Source: a virus | Direction: 5' to 3' (one strand) | IMG/VR virus record: IMGVR_UViG_3300044634_001013 | Span: 1 to 64,000 of that record | DNA length: 64,000 bases | Shown: positions 27,388 through 58,978 of the stretch, in pieces | Layout: each line of letters starts with the position of its first letter | How positions within the stretch are numbered: position 1 is the first letter of the stretch | Position numbers and translations under genes: made by a program | Notes under the pieces: model-generated | Told to the model about the DNA's origin: nothing | Seen by the model: the letters and a program-made list of their open reading frames with translations, nothing else | The model's database searches: none

Positions 27388-27732
27388 ATGGATATTAACA
27401 AGGTTAATTCAAAAGTTTTGGAAGAAGAAACAAGACTAGGTATTTATGTCTGGGAAATGCCAGATGGTAGATGGATTGGAGACGATGATGGTAACTTTCT
27501 TTCTATCACGTCGACAAAAGGAAATAGATCCAAAGTCGATGCTCTGGCTAGAGAAGTTCGCTCATATGGTATATATGAGGGCGGGCCTAAATTTCTTTCA
27601 GGAAGAAGAAAAATTGACGACGAAGAGTTCTCATACCAACAGTCAAGATTGAACCTAGGCCTTGTGCCAGATCCATTAGATATTGGAAGCTATAAAGACG
27701 AGATGAAGAACTTAAAGAATTTAAGGGGATAA
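27388..27732 (+). CDS. Conserved hypothetical protein upstream of portal
   Basis: A 114-residue protein led by a near-leaderless promoter. It contains 'GIYVWEMPDGRWIGDDDGNFLSI', given here as 'YVWEMPDGRWIGDDDGNFL', and a Lys/Asp-rich C-terminus. I do not recognise a catalytic motif. In many actinophages a small protein of this kind sits between terminase and portal. The stop is one base before the portal ATG, so the two are probably made together. Confidence 0.6.
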   Translation: MDINKVNSKVLEEETRLGIYVWEMPDGRWIGDDDGNFLSITSTKGNRSKVDALAREVRSYGIYEGGPKFLSGRRKIDDEEFSYQQSRLNLGLVPDPLDIGSYKDEMKNLKNLRG

Positions 27733-27733
27733 A

Positions 27734-29314
27734 ATGGAATTTATTGAAGAAGAGACAGAACAAGTAAACGAAATCAGAATTAACAATTCTTCTGATTGGT
27801 TTTCATTTAAAAAAGAATCTTCAAGCAATGACCCATTTGATATTGGAAAAGACGACCTTGCAAAAGTAAGAGGCCTCAGTCCAGCATTCCGTCGTAAGAT
27901 GTCAAGAGAATTAAGTAAATCATTTACTGGAGTTGACGGTGCGGCAACACAACAAAATCTTTTGGCACAAGCAATCAGCGGATACTCAATGTTCGATCTT
28001 GTACAGCCACCATATAACCTAGAATACCTATCACAAATTTATGAAATATCAACATACAACTACGCAGCAATTAATGCTAAGGTTTCAAACATCATCGGTC
28101 TCGGATATGACTTCGTTGAAACAAAGAAAACAAATGATGCCTTCGATTCAATTACAGACGATAAGCAATTAGAAAGAGCACGTAGAAAATTAAATAAGCT
28201 TCGTCAAGATTTGAATGCTTGGCTTGATTCAACAAATGATGAAGATACCTTTACAGAAACTCTTAAAAAGGTTTATACAGATTTAGAGGCAACAGGAAAT
28301 GGATTCCTTGAAATCAGCAGAACCACAGCAGGAAACATCGGATATATTGGACATATCCCAGCTAAGACAATGCGTGTGCGTCGTCTGCGTGATGGATTCA
28401 TTCAGCTACTCTATGGCAAGGCCGTTTACTTCAGAAACTTTGGAGATATGGACACACCAAGTCCGATTACATCTCAGGAAGATCGGCCAAACGAAGTAAT
28501 TCATTTGAAGAAGTATACTCCAATGAATAACTATTATGGCATCCCAGATATTATTGCTGCACAGAATGCATTGGCTGGAAATGAATTTGCTGGTCGTTAT
28601 AACCTAGACTACTTTGAAAATAAAGCGGTACCTCGCTATATTATTACGGTCAAGGGCGCAAAGCTTTCACCAGACTCAGAAAGAAAACTGCTTGAATTTT
28701 TCCAGGTTGGACTAAAGGGCAAAAACCATAGATCCCTTTATGTTCCACTTCCAGCAGATACACCAGACTCAAAGGTTGAATTTAAGATGGAGCCTATTGA
28801 GGCGGGAACCCAAGAGTCATCATTTAATAAATATCGTCAGGCCAATAGAGACGAAATCCTATTAGCTCACAGAGTTCCTATTAATAAGATCGGTGTTCCT
28901 GAAGGAGTATCCCTTGCAAATGCTCGTGATGCAGACAAGACATTTAAAGAGCAGGTTTGTAGACCAGCTCAGATGATATTAGAGAAAAGATTAAATCAAA
29001 TATTTGCAGAAAAGACAGATGCTCTTTCTCTTAAATTTAATGAATTAACGCTTACAGACGAAGATACTCAGTCTAAAATTGATGAGAGATATTTGCGTAT
29101 GCAGGTAATTACCCCTAATGAAGTTCGTATTAGGAAGGGCATGATTCCTCTAGACGGAGGAGATGATGTTATTGAATTAAAACCCCAAGCAGCGGCGGAG
29201 GCTAGATCTCAGGCTGGAAATACTAGAGCCAGATCACAAGAAAGACAAAGTAATTCTCCCGATAATTCTGGAGAGGGCCGTAATGCTAAGGGGGATGGCA
29301 GAACAGTAGAGTAG
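27734..29314 (+). CDS. Portal protein
   Basis: A 526-residue portal, which forms the dodecameric DNA gate at one head vertex. It matches the PBSX/HK97-type portal family: 'LEYLSQIYEISTYNYAAINA', the 'GLGYDF' strand, 'GNGFLEISRT', 'IPAKTMRVRR', 'GIPDIIAAQNALAGNEFAG', 'NYFENKAVPRYII'-type wing segment, and the 'RVPINKIGVPEGVSLANARD' then 'FKEQVCRP' C-terminal helices. The tail after residue about 485 is Gln/Ser/Arg-rich and likely disordered. No terminase gene precedes it in this window. Confidence 0.92.
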   Translation: MEFIEEETEQVNEIRINNSSDWFSFKKESSSNDPFDIGKDDLAKVRGLSPAFRRKMSRELSKSFTGVDGAATQQNLLAQAISGYSMFDLVQPPYNLEYLSQIYEISTYNYAAINAKVSNIIGLGYDFVETKKTNDAFDSITDDKQLERARRKLNKLRQDLNAWLDSTNDEDTFTETLKKVYTDLEATGNGFLEISRTTAGNIGYIGHIPAKTMRVRRLRDGFIQLLYGKAVYFRNFGDMDTPSPITSQEDRPNEVIHLKKYTPMNNYYGIPDIIAAQNALAGNEFAGRYNLDYFENKAVPRYIITVKGAKLSPDSERKLLEFFQVGLKGKNHRSLYVPLPADTPDSKVEFKMEPIEAGTQESSFNKYRQANRDEILLAHRVPINKIGVPEGVSLANARDADKTFKEQVCRPAQMILEKRLNQIFAEKTDALSLKFNELTLTDEDTQSKIDERYLRMQVITPNEVRIRKGMIPLDGGDDVIELKPQAAAEARSQAGNTRARSQERQSNSPDNSGEGRNAKGDGRTVE

Positions 29315-29332: not shown

Positions 29333-29361
29333 TTGCCTTTTTATCTACAAATAGATAAAAT
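29333..29361 (+). promoter_or_regulatory. Promoter TTGCCT-17-TAAAAT, leaderless start of protease gene
   Basis: TTGCCT (29333-29338), exactly 17 bases, TAAAAT (29356-29361). The same two hexamers at the same spacing occur before the major tail protein (34979-35007). The protease ATG is 7 bases after the -10, so the mRNA likely begins at the start codon. Confidence 0.65.
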
Positions 29362-29368
29362 TAACCAT

Positions 29369-30688
29369 ATGAACATTGAAAAGTCACATTGGTCATCCAA
29401 TGGAGAAAACATAAGCCTTACAGTTCCTTTCACAAAAGTAAATCGTGAGAAGAGAACAGTTTCTGGTTTTGCAACACTTGATAACATTGACCAGACAAAT
29501 GATGTAGTTACATCAGAAGCAAGCTTAAAAGCATTTGAAAGTTTCCGTGGAAACATTCGTGAAATGCACACACCACTTGCAGTAGGCAAGATGCTTTCAT
29601 TTAGACCAGAAACATTCTATGATCCAAAGTCTGGTGCATTCTACAATGGAATCTATGTCGACGTTTATGTATCAAAAGGCGCAAATGATACATGGGAAAA
29701 ATGTCTAGACGGAACACTAACAGGATTTTCAATCGGCGGAAAAATTACAGAGTCAGATAATGAAGTAAATAAGTCAACAGGACAAACAGTTAGATTCATT
29801 AAGTCTTATGATTTAGTTGAACTTTCAATTGTTGATTCTCCTGCAAACGAACTATGTAACGTTCTATCTATTTCTAAAATGAATGGGCAGCTAATTTTTA
29901 AAGGAATGGCAGCGGATGTAGTTGCAGAAAATATTTTTTATTGTGAACAAAGCGATTCAGTTTTTATGTCAACAGAGAAGACATTTGATTCACCAGTTTC
30001 TGGATTACCAGCAACCTTAATTGGCTGGGTGGAATCAACAGATGTTAACAAGTCAAAAGAAATAGATAAGATTCTTGCTTCATTCAAGAAGTCAAGATTA
30101 CCGTTGCCTGATACACAAACAATTGCAAAACAGGCAAACGCAGAAGGAGGTAATGAAGTGTCAGAAAATACAGAAAACACAGTAGTCGAAGAGACTACAG
30201 TTGTTGAAGAGACTCCAGTTGTTGCTGAAGAAGCACCAGCAGTTGTCGAAGAAGCTCCTGCAGCAGATGCAGTAGCAGACGCTCCTGCCGAAACTCTGGA
30301 AAAAGCAGCCGATGTATCAGAAGTTGAGGTTGATGAACCTGATTTTGCAAAGATGCTAGGCGATCTAAAAGGCTTTTTCTCAGATACTCTAAACAAGGCA
30401 TCAGAAGCAAATGCTGTACAAGTTTCAGCTATTAAAGAAACAGTTGAAGTATTCAGCAAGAGCGTTGATACAAGAATTTCAGAGTTGGCAGAACAACATA
30501 CTGCGCTTAGCGCAGCAGTTAATCAAATCAAGAACACGATTGATGGCGTAGAAAAGCGTGTCGATGCAGTAGAATCCGAGACTGCAATTAAGAAGTCCTC
30601 TGACCTTGGCGGGTCACAGGAAGTAAAAATCCAAAAATCAACATGGGGCGGTTCTTTCCTCGGCTCCGTAAAAGATTTAATCAACTAA
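29369..30688 (+). CDS. Prohead protease fused to scaffold domain (HK97-type, S78)
   Basis: A 439-residue protein. I start at ATG 29369, because the TTG at 29333 is the -35 of its promoter. Residues about 15-170 are the herpesvirus-like/HK97 prohead protease: 'VSGFATLDNIDQTNDVV', H67 in 'REMHTP', S121 in 'TGFSIGG', and E151 in 'DLVELSIVDSPAN', the expected His-Ser-acid set. Residues about 265-320 are a long acidic Glu/Val/Ala run, and 325-420 form heptad-rich coiled coil typical of scaffolds. It would drive capsid assembly, then digest scaffold. A second in-frame start at 30158 may make the scaffold part alone. Confidence 0.88.
   Translation: MNIEKSHWSSNGENISLTVPFTKVNREKRTVSGFATLDNIDQTNDVVTSEASLKAFESFRGNIREMHTPLAVGKMLSFRPETFYDPKSGAFYNGIYVDVYVSKGANDTWEKCLDGTLTGFSIGGKITESDNEVNKSTGQTVRFIKSYDLVELSIVDSPANELCNVLSISKMNGQLIFKGMAADVVAENIFYCEQSDSVFMSTEKTFDSPVSGLPATLIGWVESTDVNKSKEIDKILASFKKSRLPLPDTQTIAKQANAEGGNEVSENTENTVVEETTVVEETPVVAEEAPAVVEEAPAADAVADAPAETLEKAADVSEVEVDEPDFAKMLGDLKGFFSDTLNKASEANAVQVSAIKETVEVFSKSVDTRISELAEQHTALSAAVNQIKNTIDGVEKRVDAVESETAIKKSSDLGGSQEVKIQKSTWGGSFLGSVKDLIN
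30158..30688 (+). CDS. Nested in-frame scaffold protein (internal GTG start)
   Basis: GTG at 30158 lies in the protease frame with GGAGG exactly 7 bases upstream (30146-30150), the strongest ribosome site in this unit. Use of it gives a 176-residue protein beginning '(M)SENTENTVVEETTVVEE' and holding the acidic linker and the whole coiled coil but no protease. Lambda uses the same plan: scaffold Nu3 is nested in frame in protease gene C. The site falls exactly at the boundary of the two domains. Expression is inferred. Confidence 0.65.
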   Translation: MSENTENTVVEETTVVEETPVVAEEAPAVVEEAPAADAVADAPAETLEKAADVSEVEVDEPDFAKMLGDLKGFFSDTLNKASEANAVQVSAIKETVEVFSKSVDTRISELAEQHTALSAAVNQIKNTIDGVEKRVDAVESETAIKKSSDLGGSQEVKIQKSTWGGSFLGSVKDLIN

Positions 30689-30710: not shown

Positions 30711-31763
30711 ATGAGCAATGAATTGTTAGAAAAAACAATCGCATCTGGTACAACAGCAACAGCTGGCATGAACGGTGGTTCCCTTTCAGGAACTGGTGTA
30801 CACGTCGGTGCTACCGAAACTGGTGGTCTGCTAAACCCAGAACAGTCTGCTCGCTTCCTGGACTACATGTTCGACGCTACCGTTATCGGTAAGGTCGCCC
30901 GCACTGTCCGTATGAAGTCAGACACAACAGAAATTGATCGCATGTCAGTAGGCGAAAAGCTTATGAAACTTGCAACAGAAGGTGACGACACTGGGTCTAA
31001 CTCAGCAGTAACTTTCTCAAAGATCTCTCTCACAACAAAGAAGCTTCGCTTGGACTGGGAGCTTTCAACAGAGTCTCTAGAAGATAATATTGAAGGTCCA
31101 GATCTAGAAGATCACATCGCCCGCATGATGGCAACACAGGCAGGTAATGACATTGAAGATGTAGTCCTTAATGGAAATACATCACTATCATCAGATAACC
31201 TTTACAAGGCATTTGATGGTGTAGTAAAGAAGGCTAAGACTACAGGTCGCGTTGTCGATGCTGGTGGAGCTGCAGTAAGCCGTGCTGTATTTAACAGCGC
31301 ACTTAAGGCTCTTCCACGTAAGTACAAGCAACGTCGTGCAGATCTTCGCTTCTTGGCAGGTTCAAACCTAATCCAAGATTTCCTATATGCTAACAGCATT
31401 GGAACAAACAACACAATCCCACAAGATATCGCTTCAAGCGTAATCCGTGGTCAAGGTGTTCAGCCTCTAGGTGGTCCAGCAGGTTATGTGGCTCCATTCG
31501 CATTCGGTATTCCGATTGTTGAAGTTCCACTACTTCCTGAAGCACAGGATGGCGATTACTCAGGAGAGACAGGCAACCACGGTGACATCCACTTGACATT
31601 CCCAAATAACGTAGTTATTGGTATCAAGCGTGACGTAACTGTTTACCGTTTCTTCTGGCCACGTAAGGACTCAATTGAGTACACAATGTATACTCGTGTT
31701 GGCGTCCAGATCGAACAGGCTGATGCTTGGGTCGTTGTAAAGAACGTTAAGGTAGCTTCTTAA
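30711..31763 (+). CDS. Major capsid protein (HK97 fold)
   Basis: A 350-residue protein. The N-arm 'TETGGLLNPEQSARFLDYMF', 'KVARTVRMKSDTTEIDRM' (E-loop start), 'LRLDWELSTESLEDNIEGPD' and 'MMATQAGNDIEDVVLNG' (spine helix), and the C-terminal 'IGIKRDVTVYRFFWPRKDSI' and 'GVQIEQADAWVVVKNV' are typical of phage_capsid family members. Codon choice is visibly different from the fibre genes (more C-ending codons such as ATC, TTC and CGC), as expected for the most abundant protein. It follows the protease-scaffold gene and ends at a strong terminator. Confidence 0.92.
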   Translation: MSNELLEKTIASGTTATAGMNGGSLSGTGVHVGATETGGLLNPEQSARFLDYMFDATVIGKVARTVRMKSDTTEIDRMSVGEKLMKLATEGDDTGSNSAVTFSKISLTTKKLRLDWELSTESLEDNIEGPDLEDHIARMMATQAGNDIEDVVLNGNTSLSSDNLYKAFDGVVKKAKTTGRVVDAGGAAVSRAVFNSALKALPRKYKQRRADLRFLAGSNLIQDFLYANSIGTNNTIPQDIASSVIRGQGVQPLGGPAGYVAPFAFGIPIVEVPLLPEAQDGDYSGETGNHGDIHLTFPNNVVIGIKRDVTVYRFFWPRKDSIEYTMYTRVGVQIEQADAWVVVKNVKVAS

Positions 31764-31791
31764 TTTAATTTAAGGATACCCTGCAAGAAAG

Positions 31792-31818
31792 GCCCCCAAA
31801 TTAATTTTGGGGGCTTTT
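31792..31818 (+). terminator. Rho-independent terminator after major capsid gene
   Basis: GCCCCCAAA and TTTGGGGGC form a 9-bp GC-rich stem around a 5-base loop, followed by TTTTCATTTT. It separates the abundant capsid mRNA from the connector genes. Confidence 0.9.
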
Positions 31819-31843
31819 CATTTTAATTTAAGAATGCTATAAT
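31815..31843 (+). promoter_or_regulatory. Promoter TTTTCA-17-TGC TATAAT
   Basis: TATAAT (31838-31843) preceded by TGC, with TTTTCA 17 bases upstream in the T-run of the terminator. Its nine-base core is identical to 19755 and 58982. It restarts transcription for the connector genes at 31870 onward. Confidence 0.65.
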
Positions 31844-34978: not shown

Positions 34979-35007
34979 TTGCCTTATGACCTAAGATGGC
35001 CTAAAAT
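34979..35007 (+). promoter_or_regulatory. Promoter TTGCCT-17-TAAAAT for major tail protein
   Basis: TTGCCT (34979-34984), 17 bases, TAAAAT (35002-35007); same hexamers and spacing as at 29333. Unlike that one it has a leader of about 75 bases, A-rich and ending in AGGAGG before GTG. The gap 34977-35091 holds no gene. Confidence 0.65.
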
Positions 35008-35091: not shown

Positions 35092-35832
35092 GTGGCAACA
35101 TATAATAATGCCAAGAATATTCTCGTAGGAGCATCACCATTGTTCCTTTCAGAGAAAGATTCGACACAATCAGGTTATGTAGAAAATATGGAACCAGGCG
35201 CTTCTTCAGGTGTTGCATTCTCAACAGGTGTATCATACACCACAACTTTGAATGCAGATACATCTGATAAGTACCGTAACGTTGGTTATACCAACAATGG
35301 TCTTCAGATTACATATAACCCAACATTTGATTCAGTAACAGTAGATCAGCTTCTTGATACAGCTAAGCTTTTCAAGTCTGCTATGGAAGTTATGATCATG
35401 ACAGAAATGTCAGAAGGTACTCTTGAAAACGTTCTTGTTGTATTCGGACAGGGCGGAACAGATACATCATCTGATCCAATCTCAGCAACAAATACACTAA
35501 CAACAAATTCAGCTTACTCACAAGCATCACCAACAACATCAGGAACAAAGACTCTAGGTCTTGCAGCTGGTGCTCTTGGAGTTGCTCCAACAGAGCGTCA
35601 ACTTATTGCAGTTGGACAGGCACCAACAGGCTCAAACGACAAGATCGTTTCAGCAGAGCGTGTATATTATGCACGTCGTGTTCTTTCAGTACAGCAATCA
35701 CAGTTCTCTCTAGCTCGTAACGCAGCAACCACATTCCCAGTAACATTCCGTCTGCTTCCAGATGGTAATACAGCATACGCTGGCCAGGAATATGGAAAGA
35801 TCATTGACCGTATCCTTACAGTCACTGCATAA
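35092..35832 (+). CDS. Major tail (tube) protein
   Basis: A 246-residue protein starting at GTG with AGGAGG upstream. 'NNAKNILVGASPLFLSEKD', 'TTTLNADTSDKYRNVGYTNN', 'LQITYNPTFDSVTVDQLLDT' and the C-terminal 'FPVTFRLLPDGNTAYAGQEYG' fit actinophage siphoviral tube proteins. A private promoter and terminator and capsid-like codon choice agree with very high expression. Confidence 0.85.
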   Translation: MATYNNAKNILVGASPLFLSEKDSTQSGYVENMEPGASSGVAFSTGVSYTTTLNADTSDKYRNVGYTNNGLQITYNPTFDSVTVDQLLDTAKLFKSAMEVMIMTEMSEGTLENVLVVFGQGGTDTSSDPISATNTLTTNSAYSQASPTTSGTKTLGLAAGALGVAPTERQLIAVGQAPTGSNDKIVSAERVYYARRVLSVQQSQFSLARNAATTFPVTFRLLPDGNTAYAGQEYGKIIDRILTVTA

Positions 35833-55978: not shown

Positions 55979-56254
55979 ATGGGCAAAACACCTTTCGATA
56001 CCTGGAAAGAAAATAATCCAGACAAGACAATTATTCTTCAAAGAGAGCAAGAAAAAAATAAAAAGGTTAGGCCGTGGGACCTATTAGATCCGAGCAAACC
56101 AAGAGCTGAAAATGAATTGGCAGAGTTAAGATATTCAATATGTCTTGAGTGCCCGTCCTTGATAAAATTATCTAAGCAATGTAGAAAGTGTGGTTGTTTT
56201 ATGGATGCAAAAACTAAACTTCTAGGAGCTAGTTGTCCGATTGGTAAGTGGTAA
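55979..56254 (+). CDS. Small zinc-ribbon protein (DUF6171-like)
   Basis: A 91-residue protein starting at the base after the previous stop. The C-terminal half has Cys pairs 'ICLECPSL', 'KQCRKCGCFMDAKTKL' and 'SCPIGKW', a compact zinc-binding pattern known from conserved phage and bacterial proteins of no proven function. Overlaps the radical SAM gene by TAATG. A metal-binding partner or adaptor for the enzymes downstream is possible. Confidence 0.7.
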   Translation: MGKTPFDTWKENNPDKTIILQREQEKNKKVRPWDLLDPSKPRAENELAELRYSICLECPSLIKLSKQCRKCGCFMDAKTKLLGASCPIGKW

Positions 56255-57258
56255 TGTCATACTTTTATAAAATAGCTATGGCTCAAATTGATCCAAATGG
56301 ATTATGTAATTCTGGATGCTGGTTTTGCCCAGTGGCATATAGCCCAAACCCAGAATTTGCAAAAAAAAATATGCCTGTCGAACAACTTGAAAGTATAGTT
56401 AAGCAGCTACACGAAGGTAAAGGCACGTTTGTCTCAGACAATTTTAGTTTTATTTATACAGCGCATTATAATGAAGTCCTTCTCTATAAACATTTTAAAG
56501 AGATGCTTGACATATTTAGAAAATATAATTTTCAAACTATGGTTTTGACAAATGGTGTTCCTCTAACAAAAGAGCGAACAGATATAATTAAAGAATATCA
56601 AGATGTTGTATATGGAATTTGTTTTAATATTCCTTCGTCTGATGCAGAACTATGGGGTAAATATACAAACATGAACCCAAAGATTTTTGAAAAAGTAAAA
56701 GCTAATATTGCATATGCTATAGAACAATTGCCAGAAATGCATAAAAATAAAACAATGTCTATTCAGGTAAACGGAGTTAATCAGGCTTCTTTAATTGAAA
56801 ACGGTGGCTGGATTAAAATGATGGAAAATGCTCCAGAAATTGATTTAGATGTAGTTGAAGGGGATCTAGCTAAACAGGTTAAGGGCTTTAAAGAACTTTT
56901 TCCTGGATTACAGGTTTACGAAATGGCTAGCTTAATTGATAGAGCTGGGCATCTAGACAAGCATAATGTAATAACAAATATTCACGCTATAGAAAAATAT
57001 TCTAAAATTGATGATAATAAAAGAGTAGTAAAGTGTGGAAATGGTAGAGAGACTGGCGGAAGACCAAACGGTTGGATTCATGTTAATGCTAACGGTGATC
57101 TTTTTATATGCTGTAATGACTATGACTTTGAAACCATATTCGGTAACATAAATGAAAAGCCTATAAAGGATATATGGATGAGCCTTGACCATAAGCTAGC
57201 TATTGCAAAAGCATATAAAACTTTATGTACGACATGCTCGGCAGCGATCTGGGCCTAA
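56254..57258 (+). CDS. Radical SAM enzyme with SPASM-type C-terminus
   Basis: A 334-residue protein; the start is ATG 56254 in overlap with the previous stop (a GTG at 56248 is possible). C18, C22 and C25 in 'GLCNSGCWFCP' are the CX3CX2C cluster that binds the radical SAM [4Fe-4S]. The C-terminal 90 residues have further Cys ('VKCGNGRE', 'GDLFICCNDYDFETIFGNI', 'CTTCSAAIW'), the SPASM/twitch pattern of auxiliary iron-sulphur clusters. SPASM enzymes modify peptides or sugars. Substrate here unknown. Placed between the zinc-ribbon gene and a glycosyltransferase. Confidence 0.86.
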   Translation: MSYFYKIAMAQIDPNGLCNSGCWFCPVAYSPNPEFAKKNMPVEQLESIVKQLHEGKGTFVSDNFSFIYTAHYNEVLLYKHFKEMLDIFRKYNFQTMVLTNGVPLTKERTDIIKEYQDVVYGICFNIPSSDAELWGKYTNMNPKIFEKVKANIAYAIEQLPEMHKNKTMSIQVNGVNQASLIENGGWIKMMENAPEIDLDVVEGDLAKQVKGFKELFPGLQVYEMASLIDRAGHLDKHNVITNIHAIEKYSKIDDNKRVVKCGNGRETGGRPNGWIHVNANGDLFICCNDYDFETIFGNINEKPIKDIWMSLDHKLAIAKAYKTLCTTCSAAIWA

Positions 57259-58158
57259 ATGACTAGTATATTTATACAGATAGCATCCTATCACGATTTT
57301 GAGCTACCAAGAACTATTCAAGATGCTATAAATAAAAGCTCAGGTGAAAATCAAATAAATTTTGGGATACATCATTGTTATATAAATAAAGATGAGATAA
57401 ACCTGCCAAATTTAAGTAATGTTAAGTATTTTAAATCTAAGTCCCCAGAAAATATTGGCTTAGGAATTAGCAGGTTGCTGGCTCATAATTTTTATGACGG
57501 AGAAGACTATTACTATCAAGTAGATGCCCACTCAAGATTCGTAAAAGACTGGGATAAAAAATTAATTAGAGATGTAAGAAACTACCAGGCATTTGGAATA
57601 GAAAAGCCAGTTATCACAGCCTATCCAATGGTGTATAGTTATTCTAATAAAGAACTTAAGCTTTATCCTGGCGGTGGAGTTACAGAAATATCTTTTCATG
57701 AGAATGTTCAGCAGTTTAAGGCTTCAAGGATACCGTCACAAACTGCGATTGCAAACAGAGAAAATAATATATTTACTAAATCTGTTTCTGGTGGAAATAT
57801 ATTTACAGTTGGAGGATTTATAGAGCCAAACCCAGATATTGCTTTTTATGGAGAAGAAATATTTATTGCTGCCAGAGCATTTACAAATGGATTTGATTTA
57901 ATGGTTCCATCAGAAGAAACACTTTACCACCTATATTATTCCGACGACCTTGACCCATCAAATCATAGAAGATTAATATGGAAAGACTATCCAGATCAAT
58001 TTAATATAATGGATGAAAAATCTAAAAATATAATTTATAATACTCTTTCTCAGGGTTTGGTCGGAGACCTGCTTTTGGGAAGCGAAAGAACAATACAGGA
58101 GTATTCAGATTTTACTGGGTTAAATTTTGAAACAGGAGAAGTTACAGTAGATGATTAA
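57259..58158 (+). CDS. GlcNAc-transferase-like glycosyltransferase (PF11397 type)
   Basis: A 299-residue GT-A enzyme beginning at the base after the previous stop. 'IFIQIASYHDFELPRTIQDA' and 'INFGIHHCYINKDE' start the fold; 'YYYQVDAHSRFVKDWDKKL' has the D-x-H-x-R variant DXD motif; 'GGNIFTVGGFIEPNPD' then 'FYGEEIFIAARAF' holds the acceptor-side acidic residues. The family includes the Skp1 (hydroxyproline) GlcNAc-transferase, so a protein hydroxyl acceptor is plausible. The gene overlaps the epimerase by 8 bases. Confidence 0.85.
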   Translation: MTSIFIQIASYHDFELPRTIQDAINKSSGENQINFGIHHCYINKDEINLPNLSNVKYFKSKSPENIGLGISRLLAHNFYDGEDYYYQVDAHSRFVKDWDKKLIRDVRNYQAFGIEKPVITAYPMVYSYSNKELKLYPGGGVTEISFHENVQQFKASRIPSQTAIANRENNIFTKSVSGGNIFTVGGFIEPNPDIAFYGEEIFIAARAFTNGFDLMVPSEETLYHLYYSDDLDPSNHRRLIWKDYPDQFNIMDEKSKNIIYNTLSQGLVGDLLLGSERTIQEYSDFTGLNFETGEVTVDD

Positions 58159-58978
58159 CCTTTTGGTCACTGGATCATCTGGATATATCGGGTCTGCTAC
58201 AGTAGAGTATCTAAGTCATTCAGAATTTAATGTTTTTGAAATAGATATTGATGGTGAGTTTAATCTGTTAGACTTTAATCAGCTTAAATCTTTTTTTTAT
58301 AAAAACAATATAGAAATAGTTTTACATCTGGCTGCCTTTAAAAGTATTCCAGATTCAAAAAACAACCCAATAAAATACCTGCACAACAATGTATCTTCCT
58401 CATTAAATTTAATTGCAGTGTGTGAAGATCTAGACATACCAATTTTAAATGCTTCAAGTGCTTCTGTTTACAATGACACAAACCCTTATTCACAGAGTAA
58501 GATTCTGGTAGAAAAGTTTTTAGATCAGAGCAGATTGAGATATATAAATCTAAGATATTTTAATATTGGTGGCCTGATGGAAAAGCCAAATAGTAGGCAG
58601 GTGTCCAATATTTTTGACATCATAAGAGCTAAGTATTTAAATAATGAAGAGTTTATTGTTAATGCTGCAGACTCTATAAGAAACTATACTCATGTAAAGG
58701 ATATTGCTAGATTTAATGTTAAGTGTCTAAGAGATTTACTTAAAAACAACTGTAGGAAAACTATGGATGTTTATACCAATAACTCCGCCTCAGTTGAGGA
58801 TCTTTTGGCCATATATGAGTCTAAAGGGGTTTCTTTAAGGTACGCCTTGGACCACACACAAAAGCCACAGGAGCCTGTTCTGCCAAAAGGGGAGGGCCTT
58901 ATAGTAGATTCACTTAGCCTAGATGATATAATAGAATCAGAAATTAAGTACGGAATAAGACTAGATAATAGAATATAA
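58151..58978 (+). CDS. NAD-dependent nucleotide-sugar epimerase (GalE-like, short)
   Basis: A 275-residue short-chain epimerase. 'TGSSGYIGSA' (residues 7-16) binds NAD; 'VLHLAAFKSIPDS' and 'NASSASVYND' hold the catalytic Ser region; Y113 and K117 in 'NPYSQSKILVEKF' are the YxxxK pair; 'LRYFNIGG' follows. It is about 60 residues shorter than usual GalE (about 335), with the missing part in the C-terminal substrate domain. Probably makes a UDP-sugar (for example UDP-Gal) for the transferase next to it. Exact sugar unknown. Confidence 0.86.
   Translation: MINLLVTGSSGYIGSATVEYLSHSEFNVFEIDIDGEFNLLDFNQLKSFFYKNNIEIVLHLAAFKSIPDSKNNPIKYLHNNVSSSLNLIAVCEDLDIPILNASSASVYNDTNPYSQSKILVEKFLDQSRLRYINLRYFNIGGLMEKPNSRQVSNIFDIIRAKYLNNEEFIVNAADSIRNYTHVKDIARFNVKCLRDLLKNNCRKTMDVYTNNSASVEDLLAIYESKGVSLRYALDHTQKPQEPVLPKGEGLIVDSLSLDDIIESEIKYGIRLDNRI

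Follow-up and report, generated by a model that had tools for sequence, protein, structure and literature searches.

A phage capsid-assembly gene with a predicted leaderless protease start and a conserved internal Shine-Dalgarno start for a putative scaffold

Nested protease and scaffold genes

Genes in which a capsid protease and a scaffold are nested are already known, from phages lambda (C/Nu3) and Mu. In lambda, an in-frame internal start in the protease gene yields the scaffold as the C-terminal part of the protease (Shaw and Murialdo 1980, as cited in PMC8508860), and in the Mu-like Pseudomonas phage PaMx73 the scaffold start, a Val codon preceded by a Shine-Dalgarno (SD) sequence, lies inside the protease gene (PMC4378225). 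Shigella virF also gives a long and a short form from one gene, and one of the two is made from a leaderless mRNA (PMC5101355). In mycobacteria, leaderless mRNAs, which begin with the start codon, lack an SD and have a promoter directly upstream, are common and are translated about as robustly as leadered ones (PMC4633059).

The locus described here lies in the window, the whole 64 kb stretch of DNA that was analysed, which comes from a virus record of 69.7 kb (Table 1). As in lambda C/Nu3, the predicted scaffold start is nested in the protease gene and close to the capsid gene, and, as in Mu I/Z and PaMx73, it has an SD of its own; the feature by which nested protease/scaffold genes are recognized, a conserved in-frame internal start with a ribosome-binding site at the domain boundary, is present. 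Unlike Mu I/Z and PaMx73, for which no leaderless outer start has been reported, the gene has an outer start that is predicted to be leaderless, and it belongs to a different family. The protease also differs from lambda gpC: it would work in a similar way, but it matches the S78 family, has T4 gp21 as its top fold hit and lacks S49 homology. Lambda gpC has a ClpP/SppA-like (S49) protease fold that is unrelated to S78, and we know of no report that its full-length start is leaderless. As in the herpesvirus UL26/UL26.5 pair, a protease-scaffold fusion would be made together with the same scaffold alone, the second product being predicted here; UL26/UL26.5 uses a nested transcript, whereas no conserved promoter was found inside the protease region of this gene. 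The arrangement of virF is reversed, in that the short form is leaderless there and the long form is predicted to be leaderless here. The leaderless start would also be combined with an SD-led internal start that yields a second product, an arrangement not known from the mycobacterial leaderless mRNAs (PMC4633059). It is this pairing of a predicted leaderless start outside with an SD-led start inside that is new; it is deeply conserved, the records opened do not annotate it, and the open literature searched yielded no earlier account of a protease/scaffold gene that combines a leaderless outer with an SD-led inner start.

The protease gene and its C-terminal part

The protease gene matches PF04586 (Peptidase S78; 27.8 bits against a curated cut-off of 21, E=3.2e-6) and phrog_9427 (E=6e-126), and its best fold match in the PDB is T4 gp21. 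H67 and S121 are invariant in the aligned members (66/66) and, by analogy, would be the catalytic residues. An AlphaFold run with a 66-sequence alignment (mean pLDDT 65.8) predicted a protease fold extending to about residue 159, another folded region at 184-243, disorder at 244-324, and a helix at 326-410. The nested part is thereby modelled as a disordered acidic linker followed by one long helix. The original prediction had placed the internal start at the boundary between the protease and the coiled coil, and residue 264, at which this start lies, indeed falls inside the predicted linker.

Table 1. Features of the head-gene region; positions are those of the window.
Feature	Position	Strand	Details
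Portal gene	27734-29314		head gene upstream of protease
-35 element TTGCCT	29333-29338	+	TATTTGCC or TATTTGCG kept in IMG/VR relatives L001-L080
-10 element TAAAAT	29356-29361	+	17 nt from -35; ends 7 nt before ATG 29369
Predicted transcription start site (TSS), A29367 or A29369	29367-29369	+	0-2 nt leader; based on -10 distance and invariant A's
Full-length S78 head maturation protease fused to putative scaffold	29369-30688	+	439 aa, 47.5 kDa
Internal Shine-Dalgarno AAGGAGGT	30144-30151	+	followed by N6 and GTG 30158
Nested putative scaffold gene	30158-30688	+	from GTG 30158; 176 aa, 18.6 kDa, pI 4.2; product inferred
Major capsid protein (MCP) gene	30711-31763	+	350 aa; PF05065 and phrog_1623 matches
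Intrinsic terminator closing the protease/scaffold-MCP unit	31787-31819	+	called strong

That the C-terminal part is a scaffold is suggested by its position, its acidity, the coiled coil and a weak match to phrog_73 (E=0.017); a search of PDB sequences with a profile gave generic coiled-coil matches alone among the matches listed. The capsid-family match of the MCP begins near residue 34-38, and therefore there is no room for a 100-residue delta domain of the HK97 type. Since the MCP has no long delta domain and the window contains no gene other than the protease between portal and MCP, a scaffold role would fit. The MCP gene, which has the SD AAGGTAGGTG (energy -11.6), is predicted to share a transcription unit with the protease/scaffold gene, and a terminator-like hairpin is found 3' of the MCP in 63 of 75 relatives. 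An Rfam search of 29-32 kb gave nothing above the gathering threshold.

The protease shares 43-46% identity with that of the Streptomyces phages of the Stanwilliamsviridae, in which the head genes run in the order portal-protease-MCP but with an additional gene between the first two. In these phages and in Rhodococcus phage Trina (L082-L091, L094-L096), this is a small gene, sometimes annotated as a membrane protein; it is absent from the window. In the cultured-phage records opened (Stanwilliamsviridae and Rhodococcus phages), solely a capsid or head maturation protease is annotated at this position, and the paper on phage MindFlayer (PMC10690885) does not mention mass spectrometry. Elsewhere in the window, genes for a Radical SAM/SPASM protein, a GlcNAc glycosyltransferase and an NAD epimerase stand in a row (56248-58978).

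The internal and the full-length start

As originally proposed, GGAGG (30146-30150) is located 7 nt before an in-frame GTG (30158-30160). The complete motif, AAGGAGGT, occurs in one copy on the + strand of the window. With a duplex energy of -13.6 kcal/mol with the anti-SD, it surpasses every other ribosome-binding site in the window: the best of the 57 gene starts scored is weaker (-13.1), and the runner-up among 421 other in-frame internal start codons reaches -8.4 kcal/mol. Thirteen consecutive codons (253-265) carry no synonymous change in 63 distinct close relatives, and the GGA GGT codons of the SD are invariant (63/63). Val 264 is encoded throughout the close relatives by GTG, which accounts for about 5% of their Val codons, except in L080, which has ATG. 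The codons for EVDEPDF at 30326-30346 likewise show no synonymous change in close relatives.

Conservation of the internal start extends to a deep set of 88 homologues sharing less than 90% identity, from which L107 and L156 were left out. All of them (88/88) have an internal ATG or GTG preceded by an SD of -8 kcal/mol or lower, and the energy is -10 or lower in 85; a second-best internal site of -10 or lower was found in none. The motif is of a weaker, AGGAG type in L125, L147, L162 and L093/L177. In 40 representatives, GGAGG is in frame 0 in 12 and in frame 2 in 25, so that the peptide is EGG or KE. The internal start codon switches solely between GTG and ATG, with at least six changes on the tree of the protease part, and the residues that flank it are not conserved. 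Because the motif stands in different codon frames and the start codon switches between GTG and ATG, these sequences indicate that selection acts on the start signal, that is, on initiation, and not on the protein. Loss of GGAGG or GTG from relatives that keep the protein would have spoken against the original prediction; no such loss was seen in those homologues whose reading frame stays open across the region.

Exceptions and distant relatives were also considered. In L107 and L156 the protease part is interrupted by an in-frame stop while the downstream scaffold part remains open; either mutation or an assembly error could account for this. The protease parts of L137, L140, L197 and L198 are longer by about 100-300 residues, and the internal start of L140, L197 and L198 is shifted to match. 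L199 (39% identical) and L200 retain the internal start, and no comparable internal site was found in the distant S78 outgroups L201 and L202 (best SD -6.1, and -10.0 in a GC-rich gene).

The full-length start had been described as lacking an SD, which is correct for ATG 29369 (duplex energy +0.4); its position was mistaken. TTG 29333, the choice of the open reading frame tool, is the first three bases of a -35 element, and the 12-codon extension that it would add has an in-frame stop in some relatives (TTG CCT TAT ATA CAA TAA in L030). The ATG equivalent to 29369 is the start in all 80 closest IMG/VR homologues, which retain TATTTGC in the -35 region and, close to the start, a -10-like box. 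The whole promoter, TTGCCT-N17-TAAAAT, spans 29333-29361 between the portal and protease genes. Its counterpart in the Streptomyces phages consists of TTGCCT or TTGCAT, a 17-nt spacer and a -10 such as TATTAT or TAAGAT that ends 6 nt before the ATG.

Leaderless genes are recognized by the lack of an SD and by a -10 that precedes the start codon by about 6-10 nt, and this is what the window shows (7 nt). A -10 box lies 4-10 nt before the full-length ATG in 86/88 homologues, compared with 11.5% of 12,033 control ATGs; at this start, the median SD energy in the 88 is -2.7 and values of -6 or lower occur in 4. As a -10 box precedes the ATG and the SD is usually missing, the full-length transcript is predicted to be leaderless or nearly so. 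The A's at the predicted TSS positions are invariant in the 25 homologues with the same -10 spacing. In the largest class, the -10 and the ATG are 9 nt apart and a purine is found 7 nt after the -10 in 38/38, which fits a 3-nt leader; in the 6-nt class the base at this distance is already the first of the start codon. The spacing and the TSS-compatible purine thus point to leaders of 0-3 nt. The term leaderless in the original prediction can therefore be kept as a prediction, reworded as a leader of 0-3 nt, with about 3 nt fitting many relatives. The lineage of L101, L109 and L122 has no -10 at the full-length start. In LukeCage and Tomas (L083, L084), the -10 box fits a second ATG two codons 3' of the annotated start; the annotated protease starts of both phages are probably two codons too early.

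Proposed mechanism and alternatives

We consider it highly probable that this capsid-assembly gene is read from two starts, a leaderless or near-leaderless one for the protease-scaffold fusion and an SD-led internal one for the scaffold. The sequences themselves show the two signals, how they are conserved and where the domain boundary lies. From a promoter situated between portal and protease, an mRNA would start at, or no more than about 3 nt before, the protease ATG, and the full-length fusion would be translated from this leaderless or near-leaderless message. On the same mRNA, ribosomes would enter at AAGGAGGT-N6-GTG and produce the acidic coiled-coil scaffold alone. On transcripts that read through from the portal gene, the SD-less ATG would be nearly silent and the internal start would still be used. 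The MCP would be translated from its own strong SD, and the terminator would end the unit. The fusion would enter the procapsid through the scaffold tail common to both products, with free scaffold as the bulk. The two proteins, the TSS, the scaffold role and the protease:scaffold ratio are what we infer for this arrangement.

It had been expected that the gene gives much scaffold and little protease. Since leaderless translation is robust in mycobacteria, little protease is not implied by leaderlessness alone. Leaderless starts can be strong in actinobacteria, so any excess of scaffold would be due to read-through transcripts together with the very strong internal SD, and not to weakness of the outer start. 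As a tentative suggestion, the ratio might be set by mRNA 5' ends and the state of the ribosome, leaderless messages giving both products and read-through messages the scaffold alone. If so, promoter timing would decide when the protease enters proheads.

Other explanations can be weighed against a two-start gene. It is unlikely that transcription starts further upstream and that the full-length ATG, not being leaderless, is used without an SD or is coupled to the upstream gene. The TSS is a predicted one, the class with the -10 at 9-10 nt is expected to have a 3-nt leader, and the L101 lineage without a -10 would suit such a reading; however, the -10 box is tightly and deeply kept before the ATG in 86 of the 88 homologues, TTGCCT or TTGCAT recurs at 17-nt spacing in both the window group and the Streptomyces phages, and in the window the portal stop is 54 nt from the protease ATG. 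A nested transcript of the scaffold, in the style of UL26/UL26.5, could be driven by a promoter-like match in the protease region (TTAACA-16-TAAGAT, 30045-30072). This appears very improbable, as its hexamers vary in close relatives, where the -10 becomes AAAGAT, CAAGAT, TAGAAT and others, and the candidate was rejected for this lack of conservation; moreover, the strong internal SD would function on the long mRNA in any case.

It is common for capsid proteases to cut their own scaffolds, and GG is invariant in the close relatives of the window. The fusion might therefore be the sole product and cleave itself, with the internal SD arising incidentally from the conservation of a Gly-Gly or cleavage motif. 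Against this, deep relatives encode the same nucleotides as KE and not EGG at a similar distance from the ATG or GTG, synonymous sites are frozen around the SD, and the start codon alternates between ATG and GTG while the flanking residues vary. Retention of the motif for protein reasons was rejected on the change of frame and the synonymous conservation, and self-cleavage of a single product is very improbable.

Under the two-start reading, a scaffold protein is expected that the opened records of cultured Stanwilliamsviridae and Rhodococcus phages lack, and this reading probably extends to the hundreds of uncultivated homologues found. The gene would represent a natural, deeply conserved case of SD-led and leaderless initiation in one gene.

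Two further observations concern promoters elsewhere in the window. The sole other exact copy of TTGCCT-N17-TAAAAT (34979-35007) precedes a gene at 35092; in this case AGGAGG is present and the leader is about 80 nt long. The starts at 27388, 47589 and 55529 lack an SD and are preceded by a -10 box at a distance of 6-8 nt, which makes them further candidates for leaderless genes.
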